In this document: piece after piece, positions 23,100-57,480 of the stretch | Numbering within the stretch: the stretch's first letter is position 1 | How the letters are laid out: the number at the start of each line of letters is the position of its first letter | NCBI RefSeq assembly: GCF_027943725.1 | Contig: NZ_AP025696.1 | Span: forward strand, 783,501 to 847,500 | Source of the DNA: Nitrosophilus kaiyonis | GTDB taxonomy: Bacteria > Campylobacterota > Campylobacteria > Campylobacterales > Nitratiruptoraceae | DNA length: 64,000 bases | Reading direction: 5' to 3' | Notes under the pieces: generated by a model | Seen by the model: the letters and a program-made list of their open reading frames with translations, nothing else | Databases searched by the model: none | What the model was told of the DNA's origin: nothing | Made by a program: the position numbers and the translations under genes

Positions 23100-23860
23100 T
23101 GTCTATAGCTATAAGAAAAAAAAGTGAAATTGAGGCTTTAAGAAAAGCCAATATAATAGTTGCTAAAACTCTTGAATTTTTGAAAACTAAATGTGTCCCT
23201 GGTATCTCTTTAAAAGAGTTGGATAAACTTGGTGAAGAGTTTATTAAAGACCATGGGGCACGCCCTTCATTTAAAGGCTTATATGGCTTTCCAGCTTCTG
23301 TTTGTACATCTGTTAATCAAGTAATTATTCATGGAATTCCTACTGATTATAGATTGAAAGAGGGAGACATAATAGGTCTGGATATTGGGACTGAATTGGA
23401 TGGTTGGTATGGTGATGCTGCCATAACTGTTGGTGTCGGTGAAATAAGCAAAAAAGATAAAGAGCTTATAGATTGTGCTAAAGATGCTCTTTATTTTGCT
23501 ATAGATATTATAAAACCTGGACTTAGATTTAAAGAACTAAGTTATGAACTTGAAAAATTTATTAAAAAAAGAGGTTTTGTTCCTTTACATAATTTTTGTG
23601 GTCATGGAATAGGAAGAAAACCTCATGAAGAACCTGAAATTCCAAACTATTTAGAACATGGTTCACCTAAAAGTGGACCTAAAATAAAAAACGGTATGGT
23701 TTTTTGTATTGAACCTATGATTTGTCAAAAAGATTCAACACCAAAAATATTAGATGATAAATGGTCTGTTGTAAGTGTTGATGGTTTAAATGGCTCACAT
23801 TATGAGCATACCGTTGCTGTAATTGATGGAAAAGCAGAAATTTTGAGTAAGATTGAGTAA
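23099..23860 (+). CDS. map: Methionine aminopeptidase, type I
   Basis: Map (253 residues) removes the N-terminal methionine from new proteins. The dinuclear metal ligands are in order: the Asp pair in GLDIGTELDGWYGDAA (two D), the His in GHGIGRKPHEEP, the Glu in FCIEPM and the last Glu in HYEHTVAV. VNQVIIHGIP carries the conserved substrate His. Overlaps secY by one base; the map-infA gap is filled by a repeat element. Confidence 0.97.
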   Translation: MSIAIRKKSEIEALRKANIIVAKTLEFLKTKCVPGISLKELDKLGEEFIKDHGARPSFKGLYGFPASVCTSVNQVIIHGIPTDYRLKEGDIIGLDIGTELDGWYGDAAITVGVGEISKKDKELIDCAKDALYFAIDIIKPGLRFKELSYELEKFIKKRGFVPLHNFCGHGIGRKPHEEPEIPNYLEHGSPKSGPKIKNGMVFCIEPMICQKDSTPKILDDKWSVVSVDGLNGSHYEHTVAVIDGKAEILSKIE

Positions 23861-23976
23861 GTTAAGTAGTTAAGTGGTTGAGTGGTTAAGTAGTTGAGTA
23901 GTTGAGTGGTTAAAAGGCTTTATAGGCTATATATTAACATTTTTAAGAACTCATCCATTTTAACCATTTTAACTAA
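23845..23976 (+). repeat. Paired intergenic repeat element (GTTGAGTG / GTTAAGTG units)
   Basis: From the last map codons onward (23845-23914) there are about nine degenerate 8-base units of the type GTTAAGTG / GTTGAGTA. After a central part (23915-23944), the right arm (23945-23976) has complementary units (ACTCATCC, then TTTTAACCATTTTAACTA). The pairing is imperfect but extensive. It separates map from infA. Confidence 0.75.
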
Positions 23977-23997: not shown

Positions 23998-24216
23998 ATG
24001 GCTAAAGATGATGTAATTGAAGTTGATGGTATAGTAAAAGAGGCTTTACCAAATGCAATGTTTAGAGTAGAGCTTGAAAATGGACATACAGTATTATGTC
24101 ATATTGCTGGTAAGATGAGAATGCATTATATAAAAATATTACCTGGTGATAAAGTTAAAGTTGAATTAACACCATATAGTCTTGATAAAGGTAGAATAGT
24201 ATTTAGATATAAATAG
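23998..24216 (+). CDS. infA: Translation initiation factor IF-1
   Basis: IF-1 (72 residues, exact family length) is a single OB fold that occupies the A site during initiation. Starts [32 protein letters not shown] pattern (for example [16 protein letters not shown]) and ends [10 protein letters not shown], both diagnostic. A strong AGGAGG site precedes it, after the repeat element. Confidence 0.98.
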
Positions 24217-24257
24217 TTAAAAATTTAAAATTTATCTTAAATTAAGCTCTATTTCAG

Positions 24258-24263
24258 TATAAT
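24258..24263 (+). promoter_or_regulatory. TATAAT -10 box upstream of the rpmJ-rpsM leader
   Basis: A perfect TATAAT lies 42 bases after infA, preceded by AT-rich DNA with T-tracts, the typical Campylobacterota promoter form without a clear -35 box. The expected start site, about 24268-24270, is exactly at the beginning of the structured leader. Confidence 0.6.
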
Positions 24264-24267
24264 TATG

Positions 24268-24384
24268 TCCCTTTTTGGGAGTCTAGTGAAAAATCTTTGT
24301 AAAAAGTTGCACTCTTTTTACAAGGATTGGTTTAATAAAATTATTAAACCTAAGCGTACCGTAATAAAGTGCAGTTACTAGGGT
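24268..24384 (+). ncRNA. Predicted pseudoknotted leader RNA of the alpha (rpmJ-rpsM-K-D-rpoA-rplQ) operon
   Basis: Elements seen: a 5-prime hairpin TCCC-TTTTT-GGGA (24268-24280); outer helix P1 CTAGTGA (24283-24289) with TTACTAG (24375-24381); P2, 15 pairs with one G-U, 24292-24306 with 24314-24328, loop TTGCACT; P3 GGTTTAATA (24329-24337) with TATTAAACC (24342-24350). The P2 loop TGCACT (24308-24313) is exactly complementary to AGTGCA (24368-24373), next to the P1 3-prime strand, giving a pseudoknot. It starts at the predicted transcription start and precedes the genes for L36, S13, S11 and S4. S4 binds a pseudoknot leader of this operon in E. coli, so S4 control is the leading idea (inference). 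Confidence 0.6.
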
Positions 24385-24475
24385 TGAGGTAGAAGGTAGA
24401 AGGTAGAAGATAGAAGGAAAATATTCCTTCATCCTCCATCCTTCATCCTTCATCCTTCGCCCTTCTACCTATTTT
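24385..24475 (+). repeat. Paired intergenic repeat element (GTAGAAG / CTTCATC units)
   Basis: The left arm 24386-24418 holds 7-base units GTAGAAG, GTAGAAG, ATAGAAG. The right arm 24425-24472 has CTTCATC / CTTCGCC units ending CTTCTACCT, the complement. It could form a hairpin of some 30 bp between the structured leader and the rpmJ ribosome binding site. Confidence 0.8.
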
Positions 24476-24487
24476 GAAGGAGATGCA

Positions 24488-24601
24488 ATGAAAGTAAGGC
24501 CATCTGTTAAGAAGATGTGTGAAAAGTGTAAGATCATTAAACGCAAAGGCGTTGTTAGAGTAATATGTGTAAATCCAAAACATAAACAGAGACAAGGATA
24601 G
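24488..24601 (+). CDS. rpmJ: 50S ribosomal protein L36
   Basis: This 37-residue protein ([20 protein letters not shown] at the start) is the zinc-binding L36 with the CxxC (C11, C14), Cys27 and His32 ligand set. The ATG follows GAAGGAGA. It is separated from infA by a 270-base leader with a promoter and a predicted structured RNA, so it probably heads its own transcription unit with rpsM, rpsK, rpsD, rpoA and rplQ. Confidence 0.97.
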
Positions 24602-24604
24602 TAA

Positions 24605-24967
24605 ATGGCTAGGATTGCTGGTGTAGATTTACCAAAAAACAAAAGAATAGAGTATGCATTACCATATGTTTATGGTATAGGTTTAGCAACTTCTAGAAAA
24701 ATTCTTGATGCTACAGGTATCAGCTATGATAAAAGAGTTTATGAATTAACAGAAGATGAAGTTGCAAAAATAAACAAAGAGATAAGAGACAATTATATGG
24801 TAGAGGGAGACCTTAGAAGAAAAGTTGCTATGGATATAAAAGCACTTATGGATATAGGCTGTTATAGAGGCTTAAGACATAGACGTGGTCTTCCTGTAAG
24901 AGGACAAAGAACAAAAACTAATGCCAGAACAAGAAAAGGTAAAAAGAAAACTGTAGGTTCTAAATAA
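24605..24967 (+). CDS. rpsM: 30S ribosomal protein S13
   Basis: S13 (120 residues) contacts the P-site tRNA and S19. [26 protein letters not shown] at the start (core [14 protein letters not shown]) and the C-terminal [20 protein letters not shown] (core) are diagnostic. Three bases separate it from rpmJ. Confidence 0.98.
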
Positions 24968-24978
24968 AGGATTGATAA

Positions 24979-25368
24979 ATGGCAAAAAGAAGAGTAAGAA
25001 AAAAGATAGTTAAAAAAAATATTGCAAAAGGTATAGTTTATATAAACGCAACTTTTAATAATACAGTTGTTACTGTAACTGATGAAATGGGTAATGTAAT
25101 CGCATGGAGTAGTGCTGGTAGCCTTGGTTTTAAAGGCAGTAAAAAATCTACTCCATTTGCAGCTCAACAAGCAGTTGAAGATGCTCTAAATAAAGCTAAA
25201 GAGCATGGTATTAAAGAAGTTGGTATAAAAGTACAAGGGCCAGGTAGTGGTAGAGATACAGCAGTAAAAACTGTAGGTGCAACTGAAGGTATAAAAGTAC
25301 TTTTCTTTAAAGATATAACACCATTACCACACAACGGATGTAGACCTCCAAAAAGAAGAAGAGTTTAA
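24979..25368 (+). CDS. rpsK: 30S ribosomal protein S11
   Basis: S11 (129 residues) lies on the 30S platform near the Shine-Dalgarno helix. Diagnostic: [21 protein letters not shown] with [20 protein letters not shown], then VKGPGSGRD-like [12 protein letters not shown] and [18 protein letters not shown] at the end. The start follows an AAGGATTG site. Confidence 0.98.
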
Positions 25369-25413
25369 TATTACGGTACGCAAAAGTTATAGAATTTAAA
25401 GTTAGGAGAAACT

Positions 25414-26040
25414 ATGGCAAGATATAGAGGTCCGGTTGAGAAGATTGAAAGACGTCTTGGTGTAAGCCTTGCATTAAAAGGTGAAAGAAGATTAGCTGGA
25501 AAATCGGCAATTGATAAAAGACCATATGCACCAGGACAGCATGGACAAAGAAGAGCAAAAATTAGTGAATATGGATTACAATTAAGAGAAAAACAAAAAG
25601 CTAAATTTATGTATGGTGTTGCTGAAAAGCAGTTTAGAAATCTTTTTAAAGAAGCTGCAAGAATGGAAGGCAATACCGGGGAAAATTTAATAATTTTACT
25701 TGAAAGACGTCTTGATAATGTAGTATATAGAATGGGTTTTGCTTCAACTAGAAGATTTGCAAGACAGCTTGTAAATCATGGACATGTTTTAGTAGATGGG
25801 AAAAGAGTTGATATTCCTTCATACAGAGTAAAACCAGGTCAAAAAATTGAAATAAGAGAGAAAAGCAAAAATAATCCTCAAATTCAAAGATCTATAGAAC
25901 TTTCTAATCAAACTGGAATTGTTCCTTGGGTTGATGTTGATAAAGAAAAAGTTTTTGGTATATTTACAAGACTTCCAGAAAGAGAAGAGGTAGTTATACC
26001 TGTTGAAGAAAGATTAATAGTTGAGCTATACTCTAAATAA
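25414..26040 (+). CDS. rpsD: 30S ribosomal protein S4
   Basis: S4 (208 residues) is a primary 16S-binding protein and, in E. coli, the repressor of its own operon through a leader pseudoknot. Landmarks: [49 protein letters not shown] (core), and the S4 RNA-binding domain [37 protein letters not shown] (core [11 protein letters not shown]). No N-terminal zinc Cys set, as in most proteobacteria. The predicted pseudoknot leader at 24268 is a candidate target. Confidence 0.98.
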
Positions 26041-26121
26041 TAGGTAGAAGGAAATGAGGTAGAAGGTGGAAGGATAATATTCCTTCTGCCTTTATCCTTC
26101 ATCCTTCAACCTTCATCCTGT
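26041..26121 (+). repeat. Paired intergenic repeat element (GTAGAAGG / CCTTCATC units)
   Basis: It starts at the stop codon of rpsD. Left arm 26042-26073 has AGGTAGAAGG, GAGGTAGAAGG and GTGGAAGG. Around a central AATATT, the right arm 26081-26119 has CCTTCTGCC and repeated ATCCTTC units. The GAAGGATAATATTCCTTC centre alone is a clean inverted repeat. It separates rpsD from rpoA. Confidence 0.8.
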
Positions 26122-28505: not shown

Positions 28506-29772
28506 TTTTAAAGATATAACTGTAACAGATAATACAAAAGAGTATAATGAAAATATTTATTTTTTAAAAACATCTCAAAATAGTAAATATGTAGATAAAA
28601 ATATAAAAAACTTTATTACTCCAAAAGAGCTTATAAAAATTTTATCATTAGAAGATATAAAAATTATTGGTGTTACTGGAACTAATGGTAAAACAACTAC
28701 AAGTGCTGCAATTTATTCTCTTTTAATTGATAGTGGTAAAAAGTGTGCTTTGCAAGGAACAAGAGGTTTTTTTATAAATGATGAAAAAATTGAGGATAAA
28801 TCATTAACAACACCATCGATATTAAATACTATTAAACATCTATATCAAGCTAAAAAGAGAGATTGTGAATATTTTGTAATGGAAGTTAGTTCACATGCGA
28901 TTGAGCAAAATAGAATAGAAGATTTAAATTTTTCATTAAAAATTCATACAAATATAACTCAAGACCATTTAGATTATCATAAAACTTTTAAAAATTATGT
29001 AGATATAAAAAATTCATTTTTTTTAGACGATTCAAAAAAACTTATAAACAAAGATGACCCATTAATAAAGTTTAATTATAAAAATGCATATAGTTATGGA
29101 CTTGATAATCCATCAACTTTTCAAATATTGGCTTACTCATTAGAAAATGGTATTAGTGCTGCTATAAAATTTGCAGATGAAATTGCAGATTTTCACTCTC
29201 CTCTTATTGGTCTTTTTAATGTATATAACCTCGCTGCAGCCGTTAGTGCAGTTAAAATTTTAGAAAATATGCCATTAAATGAAATTTGCGAAAATGTAGA
29301 AAATTTTGCAGGTGTTAGTGGCAGAATGGAAGTAATAAATTATGAACCATTAATTATAATCGATTTTGCTCACACACCTGATGGAATGAAAAAGGTTTTT
29401 GAATCTTTTCCTGGTAAAGATTTGGTTTGTGTTTTTGGTGCTGGTGGAGATAGAGATAGAGATAAAAGAGCTAAAATGGGTGATATTGCTTCAAGATTTT
29501 GCAAAAAAATTTATATTACAAGTGACAATCCAAGAAGCGAAAAACCAATTGATATTATAAATGATATTTATCAAGGTGTAGTGGATAAGAATAAAGCAGA
29601 GCTAATTGAAGATAGAAAAGAGGCGATAAAAAAAGCAATTAAAAATTTAAAAAGTGATGAAATTTTGCTTATTCTTGGAAAAGGGGATGAAACATATCAA
29701 GAGATAAATGGTAAAAAAATTCCTTTTGATGATAGAGAAATTGTGAGAGAGTCATTAGTCATTAGTCATTAG
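28495..29772 (+). CDS. murE: UDP-MurNAc-tripeptide synthetase
   Basis: MurE (425 residues) adds the third amino acid to the peptidoglycan stem peptide in the cytoplasm. The P-loop GTNGKTT is at 62-68; the ligase core shows MEVSSHAIEQNRIEDL, NITQDHLDYH and FAHTPDG. The DNPR motif, which selects meso-diaminopimelate, is present in TSDNPRSE, so the substrate is probably mDAP. It is shorter than E. coli MurE (495), lacking part of the N-terminal domain, as in other Campylobacterota. The last five codons and the stop (LVISH) are encoded by the start of a repeat element, so this C-terminus has been replaced or extended. Confidence 0.95.
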   Translation: MKINFKDITVTDNTKEYNENIYFLKTSQNSKYVDKNIKNFITPKELIKILSLEDIKIIGVTGTNGKTTTSAAIYSLLIDSGKKCALQGTRGFFINDEKIEDKSLTTPSILNTIKHLYQAKKRDCEYFVMEVSSHAIEQNRIEDLNFSLKIHTNITQDHLDYHKTFKNYVDIKNSFFLDDSKKLINKDDPLIKFNYKNAYSYGLDNPSTFQILAYSLENGISAAIKFADEIADFHSPLIGLFNVYNLAAAVSAVKILENMPLNEICENVENFAGVSGRMEVINYEPLIIIDFAHTPDGMKKVFESFPGKDLVCVFGAGGDRDRDKRAKMGDIASRFCKKIYITSDNPRSEKPIDIINDIYQGVVDKNKAELIEDRKEAIKKAIKNLKSDEILLILGKGDETYQEINGKKIPFDDREIVRESLVISH

Positions 29773-29867
29773 TTATTGGTTATTGGTTATTGGTTATTGG
29801 TTATTGGTTATTAAATGGCTTAAATGAAACTTTTACTAATAACTAATTGCCAATAACTAATAACTAT
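29751..29867 (+). repeat. Paired intergenic repeat element (GTCATTA / GTTATTG heptads)
   Basis: The left arm 29751-29812 has nine near-perfect heptads: GTCATTA three times, then GTTATTG about six times. After a centre (29813-29834), the right arm (29835-29866) carries ACTAATA / ACTAATT / CCAATAA units, the complement. The first heptads encode the end of MurE. It separates murE from the ferredoxin-like gene. Confidence 0.85.
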
Positions 29868-31954: not shown

Positions 31955-32104
31955 TTATTAGTCATTAGTCATTGAGAATTGGGAATCAGTGTGTTAACAG
32001 TTAAGTACAAATAAGAGTATAATTACTAATTCACTAACACTAAATCCTAATAGTCACTAATAACTAATAACTAATGACTAATGACTATTGACTATTGACT
32101 AATA
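31953..32104 (+). repeat. Paired intergenic repeat element (GTCATTA / ACTAATG heptads), between ispA and tkt
   Basis: The left arm starts at the ispA stop: AGTTATTAGTCATTAGTCATT (31953-31973). A unique centre with a TGTGTTAACA-like palindrome and TATAATTAC lies between. The right arm (32040-32104) has nine or so heptads ACTAATA / ACTAATG / ACTATTG. The right arm is longer than the left, so arms have expanded independently. An ATG in it gives a longer tkt reading frame. Confidence 0.8.
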
Positions 32105-32118
32105 AAAGTGAGGTAAAC

Positions 32119-34062
32119 ATGGATAATAAAATGCGAAAAAAGATGGCTGATACTATAAGATTTTTAGGTCTTGACATGATACAAAAGGCAAACAGCGGGC
32201 ATCCAGGAGTAGTTTTGGGTCTAGCAGATGTTGCTGTAGTTTTAAGTGAGCATTTAAAACATAATCCTAAAAATCCAAAATGGATAAATAGAGATAGATT
32301 AGTTTTTAGTGGAGGCCATGCCACCGGTTTAATTTATTCTCTTTTATATCTTTGGGGTTATGATATAAGCTTAGAAGATTTAAAAGAGTTTAGACAGTTT
32401 GGTTCAAAGACTCCAGGGCATCCAGAATATGGTCATACGCCAGGAGTTGAAATCACTACCGGTCCTCTTGGACAAGGTGTTGCAAATGCTGTTGGTATGG
32501 CTATGGCACAAAGATATTTAGAATATCTTTTAAACAGTGAAAGTGCTAAAGTAATTGATCATAAAGTTTACTGTTTATGTGGAGATGGAGATTTAGAAGA
32601 GGGAATAAGTTATGAAGCATGTGCCATTGCAGGAAGATTTGCACTTAATAATTTGATAATGATTTATGATAGTAATCATATTACAATTGAAGGCGATACA
32701 TCTATAGCATGGAATGAAAATATTAGAGATAGATTTGAAGCTCAAAATTGGGATGTTATTGAAGTTGATGGTCATAATTATGATGATATTGATTCTGCTT
32801 TAAATTGGGCAAAAAGAAGAGATAAACCTGTTTTAATAATATCACATTCAGTTATTGCAAAAGGTAGCTGTAAATATGAGGGTGATCCACACTCTCATGG
32901 TGCTCCTCTTGGAGAAGATGATATTAGATGTGCAAAAGAGAAAGCGGGTTTTGATCCAGATAAACACTTTTTTGTACCAGAAGATGTACTGGTTAGATTT
33001 AGATGTGCAGTTGAAAAGGGCGAGCTTGCAGAAAAAGAGTGGAAAAAACTTCTTTTAGAATTGCCATATAAAGAGCAAAATGAACTCTTAAATATTTTAC
33101 AAAATCCAGATTTTAGCTCAATTGAGTGGCCTGAGTTTGAGCCTGGAAGCGAAATTGCTACAAGAGATAGTAATGGAAAAATTTTAAATGCTATTGCTAA
33201 AGCTCTTCCTGGATTTGTAGGAGGAAGCGCGGATTTAGCACCATCAAATAAAACATATCTTCAAGGCTTTGGAGATTTTCCAAAAGGGAAAAATTTTCAT
33301 TTTGGAATAAGAGAGCATTCAATGGGAGCAATTTCAAATGGAATGGCTGCATATGGATTAGTTATTCCATTTAATGCTACATTTTTTGTATTTAGCGATT
33401 ATCAAAAACCAGCAGTTAGAATTGCTGCTTTATCAAATTTAAAAAACTATTTTGTATGGACTCATGATAGTATTGGTGTAGGTGAAGATGGACCTACACA
33501 TCAACCAATTGAGCATTTAAGCCAATTTAGAGCTTTGCCTAATTTTTATGTTTTTAGGCCAGCAGATGCTACTGAAAATGTTGAATGTTGGAAAGCTGCA
33601 TTGAATCTAAATAAACCATGCGGTTTTGTTCTTAGCCGTCAGAAACTGAAAACTTTAAAACCTCAAAGAGATTATGGTGATCCAAAATTTGGTGGATATA
33701 TTATTAAAAAAAGAGATAATGCTAAAATAACATTAATAGCAACTGGAAGCGAAGTAATGCTTGCGCTTCAGGCTGGATGCCATTTAGAAGAGAGAGGCAT
33801 AAATGCAAATATTGTTAGTATGCCTTGTATGGAGCTATTTTTAGAACAGTCAAAAGAGTATCAAGATAGTGTAATTGATAAAAATACAAAAGTTTTGGCT
33901 ATTGAAGCAGCTTCAGGAGTTGAGTGGTATAGATTTGCCGATGACGTTTTAGCAATAGAAAATAGATTTGGTGCAAGCGGTAAGGCAAGTGAAATTTTTA
34001 AAGAGTATGGTTTTACTATACAAAATGTGATTGATAGAATTGAAAAGTTGTTGAGAAGTTGA
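32119..34062 (+). CDS. tkt: Transketolase
   Basis: Transketolase (647 residues) moves two-carbon units in the pentose phosphate pathway using thiamine diphosphate. Motifs: KANSGHPG (catalytic His), FSGGHATGLIYSLLYLWGYD-type Gly-rich region, GDGDLEEGISYEA (ThDP-binding GDG motif) and the C-terminal half with VGGSADLAPSN, REHSMGAISNGMAAYG (core) and HDSIGVGEDGPTHQPIE. The ATG at 32119 has a GAGGT site and gives MDNKMRKKMADTIRFLG; the in-frame ATG at 32095 lies in the repeat arm and would add MTNKSEVN. The last codons again border a repeat element. Confidence 0.97.
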   Translation: MDNKMRKKMADTIRFLGLDMIQKANSGHPGVVLGLADVAVVLSEHLKHNPKNPKWINRDRLVFSGGHATGLIYSLLYLWGYDISLEDLKEFRQFGSKTPGHPEYGHTPGVEITTGPLGQGVANAVGMAMAQRYLEYLLNSESAKVIDHKVYCLCGDGDLEEGISYEACAIAGRFALNNLIMIYDSNHITIEGDTSIAWNENIRDRFEAQNWDVIEVDGHNYDDIDSALNWAKRRDKPVLIISHSVIAKGSCKYEGDPHSHGAPLGEDDIRCAKEKAGFDPDKHFFVPEDVLVRFRCAVEKGELAEKEWKKLLLELPYKEQNELLNILQNPDFSSIEWPEFEPGSEIATRDSNGKILNAIAKALPGFVGGSADLAPSNKTYLQGFGDFPKGKNFHFGIREHSMGAISNGMAAYGLVIPFNATFFVFSDYQKPAVRIAALSNLKNYFVWTHDSIGVGEDGPTHQPIEHLSQFRALPNFYVFRPADATENVECWKAALNLNKPCGFVLSRQKLKTLKPQRDYGDPKFGGYIIKKRDNAKITLIATGSEVMLALQAGCHLEERGINANIVSMPCMELFLEQSKEYQDSVIDKNTKVLAIEAASGVEWYRFADDVLAIENRFGASGKASEIFKEYGFTIQNVIDRIEKLLRS

Positions 34063-34135
34063 GTGGTTGATTAGTTGGGTGGTTAAGTGGTTGAACCACT
34101 CAACTATTTTAACCTTTTTAACTACTCAACTATTC
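34047..34135 (+). repeat. Paired intergenic repeat element (GTTGAGTG / GTTAAGTG units) after tkt
   Basis: It starts in the last five tkt codons. Left arm 34047-34094 has GTTGAGAA, GTTGAGTG, GTTGATTA, GTTGGGTG, GTTAAGTG, GTTGAA units; right arm 34096-34131 has CCACTCAACTATTTTAACC and TTTTTAACTACTCAAC. The innermost GGTTGAACCACTCAACT gives a tight hairpin tip. Long near-perfect complementarity. Confidence 0.85.
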
Positions 34136-49217: not shown

Positions 49218-49326
49218 GATTGGTTGAGTGGTTGGGTGGTTGAGTAGTTGAGAAGGACTAAAAGTTATAAAACCACTCAACCATTTTAACAATTTTAACG
49301 ACTCAACAAAAAATCACCACTCAATA
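49216..49326 (+). repeat. Paired intergenic repeat element (GTTGAGTG units) between rpoC and rpsL
   Basis: It begins at the rpoC stop. Left arm 49221-49252: GTTGAGTG, GTTGGGTG, GTTGAGTA, GTTGAGAA. Centre GGACTAAAAGTTATAAAA. Right arm 49272-49325: CCACTCAACCATTTTAAC, AATTTTAACGACTCAAC and a further CCACTCAA. Arms are complementary at CCACTCAACC / GGTTGAGTGG. It separates the rpoBC and rpsL-rpsG-fusA units. Confidence 0.85.
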
Positions 49327-49801: not shown

Positions 49802-49863
49802 AATTAGAAAGTTAGAAAGTTAGAAAGTTAGAAAGTTTAAAAACTTTTTGCTTTCTCACTTTC
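49802..49863 (+). repeat. Paired intergenic repeat element (AGAAAGTT octads), rpsL-rpsG gap
   Basis: Left arm 49805-49840 has four exact-to-near-exact 8-base units AGAAAGTT; the tip AAACTTTTTG leads into the right arm TTGCTTTCTCACTTTC (49846-49863). The left arm is a clean tandem array; the right arm is shorter and more diverged. The rest of this 142-base gap (49864-49935) holds GCGAGCTTATCGC and GATGTGTATACATC, small palindromes where an S7 feedback site could lie. Confidence 0.8.
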
Positions 49864-57360: not shown

Positions 57361-57480
57361 AGTAAGGTGAGTGAGAAAGTAGGAGAGTTAGAAAGTGGAG
57401 AAGAGGTATAGTGGAATAGGAGGTAAGGAGGTAAGCAGTGAAGCTGTGAAGGTGTGAAGCAGTGAAGCTGTGAAGCGGCC
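57361..57480 (+). repeat. One-sided purine-rich degenerate repeat block upstream of the S24 repressor
   Basis: About 115 bases are almost free of C on the plus strand and consist of shifting short units: GTGAGTGAGAAAGTAGGAG, GTTAGAAAGTGGAG, AGGAGGTAAGGAGGTAAG, then a clean direct repeat GCAGTGAAGCTGTGAAG seen twice (57436-57452 and 57461-57477). No clear complementary arm follows, except short matches in 57481-57505 (CCAATTCCCAATA, CTAATGACTAATG). It is the most complex member of the repeat family. Confidence 0.6.

Follow-up and report, generated by a model that had tools for sequence, protein, structure and literature searches.

A conserved pseudoknotted leader of the alpha ribosomal operon in Campylobacterales and its kilobase-range RNA helix to the rpsK-rpsD junction in Nitratiruptoraceae

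The leader of the alpha ribosomal protein (r-protein) operon in Nitrosophilus kaiyonis is an evolutionarily conserved folded RNA, selected for two hairpins (P2 and P3) and a pseudoknot. In the family to which this species belongs, the Nitratiruptoraceae, the RNA is also selected for a long-range helix that joins the leader to the rpsK-rpsD junction. By kind this is an r-protein leader, and its fold and kilobase tether make it a novel version. We think it probable that it serves autogenous control of the alpha operon, being bound by S4 and, through the long-range helix of the family, tied to rpsD.

The window, that is, the whole stretch of 64,000 nucleotides that was analyzed, comes from a genome of 1.77 Mb. 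In it, the leader occupies positions 24268-24384 between infA (stop at 24216) and rpmJ (start at 24488), and is followed by rpmJ, rpsM, rpsK, rpsD and rpoA. An earlier note, made from the letters alone, had placed a pseudoknotted leader of the S13-S11-S4 operon just after a TATAAT box. The box is present, and the leader sits 5' of rpmJ-rpsM-rpsK-rpsD also in the parsed loci of relatives. Of 88 leaders, 84 had a TATAAT-like box 5' of P2, at a median distance of 28 nt. The features are as follows.

24258-24263, plus strand: TATAAT -10 box of the leader promoter (from the sequence)
24268-24271/24277-24280, plus strand: 5' hairpin UCCC-UUUUU-GGGA (MFE fold; variable, not conserved as a helix in the alignment)
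24282-24289/24375-24382, plus strand: closing helix of the earlier note (MFE fold, 8 pairs, one of them G-U; not conserved)
24292-24306/24314-24328, plus strand: P2 hairpin of 15 bp with loop UUGCACU at 24307-24313 (MFE fold, covariation)
24308-24313, plus strand: pseudoknot 5' strand UGCACU in the P2 loop (sequence, compensatory changes between families, own- versus cross-genome test)
24329-24337/24342-24350, plus strand: P3 hairpin of 9 bp, abutting P2 (MFE fold, covariation)
24354-24366, plus strand: leader strand of the long-range helix, GCGUACCGUAAUA (exact complement of 25369-25381; covariation, energy test)
24368-24373, plus strand: pseudoknot 3' strand AGUGCA (same evidence as the 5' strand)
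24477-24482, plus strand: rpmJ Shine-Dalgarno AAGGAG (from the sequence)
24488-24601, plus strand: rpmJ (L36), first gene after the leader (ORF and sequence; tblastn in relatives)
24605-24967, plus strand: rpsM (S13) (ORF; tblastn in relatives)
24979-25368, plus strand: rpsK (S11) (ORF; tblastn in relatives)
25369-25381, plus strand: rpsD-side strand of the long-range helix, UAUUACGGUACGC (immediately 3' of the rpsK stop, 32 nt 5' of rpsD)
25404-25408, plus strand: rpsD Shine-Dalgarno AGGAG (from the sequence; 22 nt past the long-range helix)
25414-26040, plus strand: rpsD (S4), gene of the putative regulator (ORF; tblastn matches 81-91% identical)

The predicted folding energy of the leader was -37.4 kcal/mol, as compared to -20.2 +/- 3.2 kcal/mol for 200 shuffled sequences, none of which reached as low a value (z -5.4). 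The 15-bp hairpin with its TTGCACT loop and the 9-bp hairpin were found just as the earlier note had described them. In an alignment of 19 family leaders made without structure, 100% of the cells in P2 and P3 were paired and nine pairs had changed on both sides. Across the order (93 sequences), 97.1% of the cells were paired, double changes occurred in 17 of the 20 pairs and the covariation was 0.572, versus 0.176 for shuffled and at most 0.139 for slid alignments, although this alignment was fitted to a covariance model and is hence biased toward the model structure.

The complementarity of the loop TGCACT to the tail AGTGCA was likewise confirmed. The pseudoknot core is near-invariant inside the Nitratiruptoraceae, and between families both strands switch together (CCACU/AGUGG, GCACC/GGUGC, GCACU/AGUGC, ACACU/AGUGU, UUUACAC/GUGUAAA, CCGCU/AGCGG, GCAUUU/AAAUGC and GGGAA/UUCCC). 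Outside the Nitratiruptoraceae, the loop-tail duplex was more stable within genomes (-8.25 kcal/mol) than between genomes (-6.55 kcal/mol; p < 1e-4 in a permutation test that, like the other own- versus between-genome tests reported here, ignores relatedness), and the own-genome advantage was also observed inside the family (p = 0.003). From the end of the pseudoknot at 24373 it is 104 nt to the rpmJ Shine-Dalgarno, and the pseudoknot lies upstream of the Shine-Dalgarno in relatives as well. Helices that fail to show compensatory change in relatives had been named beforehand as evidence against the fold; P2, P3 and the pseudoknot all showed such change.

The outer parts of the fold are less constant. 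The 5' hairpin is present at 24268-24280 but variable across the family alignment. The closing helix, proposed with 7 bp, forms in the window with 8 pairs in the MFE fold, but is not conserved in the family, where own-genome pairing was no better than cross-genome pairing (p = 0.23). Thus, of the three-way junction with a pseudoknot that had been suggested, the pseudoknot is conserved but the junction is not the conserved one. Outside the Nitratiruptoraceae, a different closing helix in cis, P1, is formed by a conserved 5' ACUGYGNGAAG and the strand immediately 3' of P3 (own-genome -6.77 versus between-genome -5.52 kcal/mol, p < 1e-4). The same test of P1 was negative inside the family (p = 0.86), where the strand used for P1 elsewhere pairs instead with the site 5' of rpsD. 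The 5' tip of the leader, CCCUUUU (24268-24274), has its complement in the rpmJ Shine-Dalgarno region at 24477-24482, and this pairing showed a modest gain in the family (-6.4 versus -4.5 kcal/mol for shuffled sequences); it is possible that the tip could form a conformation that sequesters the rpmJ Shine-Dalgarno.

The leader was recovered by DNA search in nearly all other Nitratiruptoraceae genomes. A covariance model built from the 19 family leaders (R1) detected a single copy in each of 21 family genomes out of 22, the genome without a match being 71% complete. The leader was also recognized by R1 in loci from Campylobacter volucris, Sulfurospirillum, Sulfurovum, Nitratifractor and further Campylobacterales. 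Order-wide, R1 matched 126 of 299 Campylobacterales genomes with one match each, and a second model (R2) matched 153 of 298 genomes in a phylum draw. The match at 5e-6 adjoins r-protein genes, whereas the weak matches with E values of 0.01-1 do not and are false positives. Thus, the RNA shows the marks of an r-leader, namely a covarying 5' UTR structure and a single match per genome, located at r-protein genes in the parsed loci. R1 found no match in four Helicobacter loci (L087, L097, L114 and L134); their infA-rpmJ gap is long and of a different kind, contains the common blocks TAGTCGTTTAGGTGAT and GAGGACTATAAACTCAATGC, and possibly holds another type of leader.

The second conserved element is the long-range helix. 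The segments at 24354-24366 and 25369-25381 are exactly complementary over 13 nt at a distance of 1,002 nt, for which the chance expectation in the window is 0.01, and the pair was also recovered by an inverted-repeat search of the operon. The leader strand falls inside the three-way junction of the earlier note, which does not mention it. In the Nitratiruptoraceae, the strand after P3 has the form GYGWRCYG, part of which is near-invariant, and its complement is found just past rpsK in all genomes but one. The helix is 9-13 bp long across the family; its rpsD-side strand begins 0-17 nt past the rpsK stop, and its end is separated by 32-48 nt from the rpsD start and by 22-38 nt from the rpsD Shine-Dalgarno, which is thereby left uncovered.

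The helix covaries in 19 of 20 Nitratiruptoraceae genomes, with 92.2% of the cells paired (19 genomes, 17 distinct rows) and double changes in 8 of the 12 pairs. The covariation was 0.436, as compared to 0.164 +/- 0.024 in shuffled alignments (0 of 500 as high) and at most 0.10 in slid registers. The own-genome energy was -21.1 kcal/mol versus -15.3 kcal/mol between genomes, with none of 20,000 permutations as good, in a test that also counts the twentieth genome, L014 (G004), in which neither side retains the helix sequence. Folded together, the leader and the rpsD-side segment reached -55.7 kcal/mol, versus -41.3 kcal/mol when folded apart.

In 25 loci of other families, pairing of the leader with the rpsK-rpsD segment had no overall support (p = 0.90). 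Three loci of one other family (L190, L195 and L223) showed a strong predicted pairing between the leader tail and the rpsK-rpsD segment (-10.5 to -17.1 kcal/mol), which may represent an independent long-range contact or AT-rich chance. The Sulfurospirillum-type rpsK-rpsD gap (L184, L196, L203, L208, L212, L221 and L224) contains a conserved AT-rich element, e.g. AACGAAATAATTTTTTTGGTTTATGCAATAGATTAGGAG, in which no complementarity to the leader was found. Apart from the long-range helix, RNAalifold gave no conserved structure for the segment 5' of rpsD. A three-strand arrangement, in which a 5' CUGUGG would also pair with CCACA past the long-range helix, was rejected, as by eye it fits few close relatives.

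Other sequence features were noted nearby. Between the leader and rpmJ (24384-24476) lies a GAAGG/CCTTC-rich palindromic repeat that forms a stable 93-nt hairpin (z -4.75), and an 84% similar copy is located past rpsD (26039-26120). GAAGG/CCTTC-like stretches occur at the leader in loci L009, L010 and L024, and not in L011-L023 and L025-L027. Tandem repeats with units of 7 or 8 bases also form many short arrays in the window (23853-23913, 29750-29813, 32056-32103, 34046-34094, 49221-49252, 49804-49837 and 57433-57476). The idea that the leader mimics the S4 site of 16S rRNA, prompted by the words GGGAAGA and ACGGUAC common with h17, was rejected: at the sequence level, the best local matches were no better than those of shuffled leaders and scattered over the 16S rRNA. 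Elsewhere in the genome, outside the window (C1:594611-594905), there are 16S rRNA gene fragments (model positions 1229-1520) separate from the full-length copies.

The likeliest ligand of the leader would be S4, by analogy, because in E. coli the same operon, and in B. subtilis rpsD, is regulated by S4 (PMC10931766), because S4 is the predicted ligand of such leaders in other phyla (PMC7247131), and because the long-range partner sits at the S4 cistron. The same leader might instead sense S13, S11, L36, L17, an r-protein complex or a small molecule. We regard this as unlikely, though it is the most serious alternative. In its favor, the leader precedes the genes of all these proteins; the established role of S4 in E. 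coli and B. subtilis and the physical link to the S4 cistron in one family both speak against it.

With S4 as the ligand, autogenous control could proceed as follows. S4 in excess over 16S rRNA would bind and stabilize the pseudoknotted leader, which would block initiation at rpmJ, such that the coupled rpsM and rpsK would drop too. No terminator-like site was found on the plus strand in a search for intrinsic terminators at 24180-24500, and translational control is therefore preferred over attenuation. In the Nitratiruptoraceae, the long-range helix would link the rpsD initiation region to the leader structure. Ribosomes terminating on rpsK would melt the rpsD-side strand, so that rpsD would be fully open only during translation of rpsK. 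Since this strand lies where the rpsK-terminating ribosome stands, poor translation of rpsK should give the helix its best chance to form, and leader repression would then be passed on to rpsD; one operator would govern both the first cistron and, 1 kb away, that of S4. Three observations count against this model: the leader resembles the S4 site of 16S rRNA in sequence no more than by chance, the long-range helix leaves the rpsD Shine-Dalgarno uncovered, and the stable 93-nt hairpin in the window separates the pseudoknot from the rpmJ Shine-Dalgarno. Furthermore, the rpsD segment takes no part in other families, and control through an S4 leader can thus not generally depend on it.

More tentatively, and with somewhat less confidence than we place in S4 control itself, we suggest that the Nitratiruptoraceae operator is a composite, in which the leader and the rpsK-rpsD junction act as one S4-responsive unit. 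A single binding event would then control the first cistron and, through a helix opened by terminating rpsK ribosomes, the S4 cistron, and the closing helix in cis would have been given up for the long-range one.

The long-range helix could also have a role of another kind. It is improbable, in our judgment, that it is a device for mRNA processing or stability that loops out rpmJ-rpsM-rpsK and marks the rpsD junction for cleavage, giving the rpsD-rpoA mRNA its own fate. The partner strand is located exactly at the rpsK-rpsD junction in every genome that has the helix, as such a device would have it, but 9-13 bp is short for typical RNase III substrates, and a pure cleavage stem has no need for the near-invariant part of the strand. 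Nor do we see much chance that the helix is an activator that holds rpsD open or provides a standby site independently of S4. The free rpsD Shine-Dalgarno agrees with this reading, whereas the leader strand of the helix occupies the place that the P1 closing strand has in other families, which suggests a role in the leader's own switch.

That the complementarity between 24354-24366 and 25369-25381 is due to chance, or is an inverted repeat at the DNA level without RNA pairing, is very improbable: AT-rich DNA often has short inverted repeats, but the low chance expectation, the eight of 12 positions that change in step and the own-genome pairing far above cross-genome pairing all argue for an RNA helix. 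A small protein encoded by the 38-codon ORF that is open across the leader in the window (24265-24381) was rejected as a general explanation, as most family leaders carry stops in all three frames and the indels between relatives are not multiples of three.

No prior description of the Campylobacterota leader was found in openly accessible papers, and neither Campylobacter nor rpmJ is named in the main text of a survey of 50 genomes from 2024. How r-proteins are balanced in Campylobacterota was not found described in the searchable papers, and the leader provides a directly testable candidate. It is present in Campylobacter, Sulfurospirillum, Sulfurovum and relatives, and adds another unrelated RNA solution before the S4 operon. 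The long-range helix is a clear natural case of a covarying RNA helix at kilobase range within a bacterial operon, for which L014, having lost the helix, offers a built-in control.

None of the Rfam 15 families matched at the leader. For RF00140 (Alpha_RBS) there was no match at the leader at the gathering threshold or at E <= 10, and its only signal, 21.7 bits against a cut-off of 38, came from positions 2613-2688 in a Sulfurovum locus, away from the leader of that locus (2402-2518). In the E. coli alpha operon (rpsM-rpsK-rpsD-rpoA-rplQ), S4 controls translation via a pseudoknotted mRNA target (PMC10931766). The leader resembles this target in being a pseudoknotted mRNA element before the rpsM-rpsK-rpsD genes. 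However, the E. coli target spans the ribosome binding site of rpsM, whereas P2, P3 and the loop-tail pseudoknot in Nitrosophilus sit 5' of rpmJ. The view that the leader recalls the E. coli S4 pseudoknot but has a different design is thus borne out, both by the comparative support for a pseudoknotted leader and by the lack of an RF00140 match.

Predicted S4 r-leaders before rpsM-rpsK-rpsD or rpsD operons have been described in Clostridia, Fusobacteriales, Bacteroidia and Flavobacteria (Eckert and Weinberg 2020, PMC7247131). These are likewise conserved structured RNAs before the same genes and predicted to bind S4, but they come from other phyla, none from Campylobacterota. A GUAA is conserved in the Firmicutes and Fusobacterial motifs (PMC7247131), whereas no such feature is evident in the Nitrosophilus leader, the comparison with these motifs being made by description and with covariance models only via Rfam 15. 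In the B. subtilis rpsD leader, bound S4 represses S4 synthesis from a monocistronic rpsD without a pseudoknot (PMC10931766); the proposed self-repression by S4 is similar, but the leader described here is pseudoknotted and heads a polycistronic operon. Finally, the E. coli bL20 operator in infC-rpmI-rplT includes a long-range pseudoknot formed by mRNA segments that lie far apart (PMC10931766). Distant mRNA pairing is common to both systems, but in Nitrosophilus the presumed protein and the operon are others, and the helix joins the 5' UTR to an intercistronic site that is three genes and 1,002 nt away.
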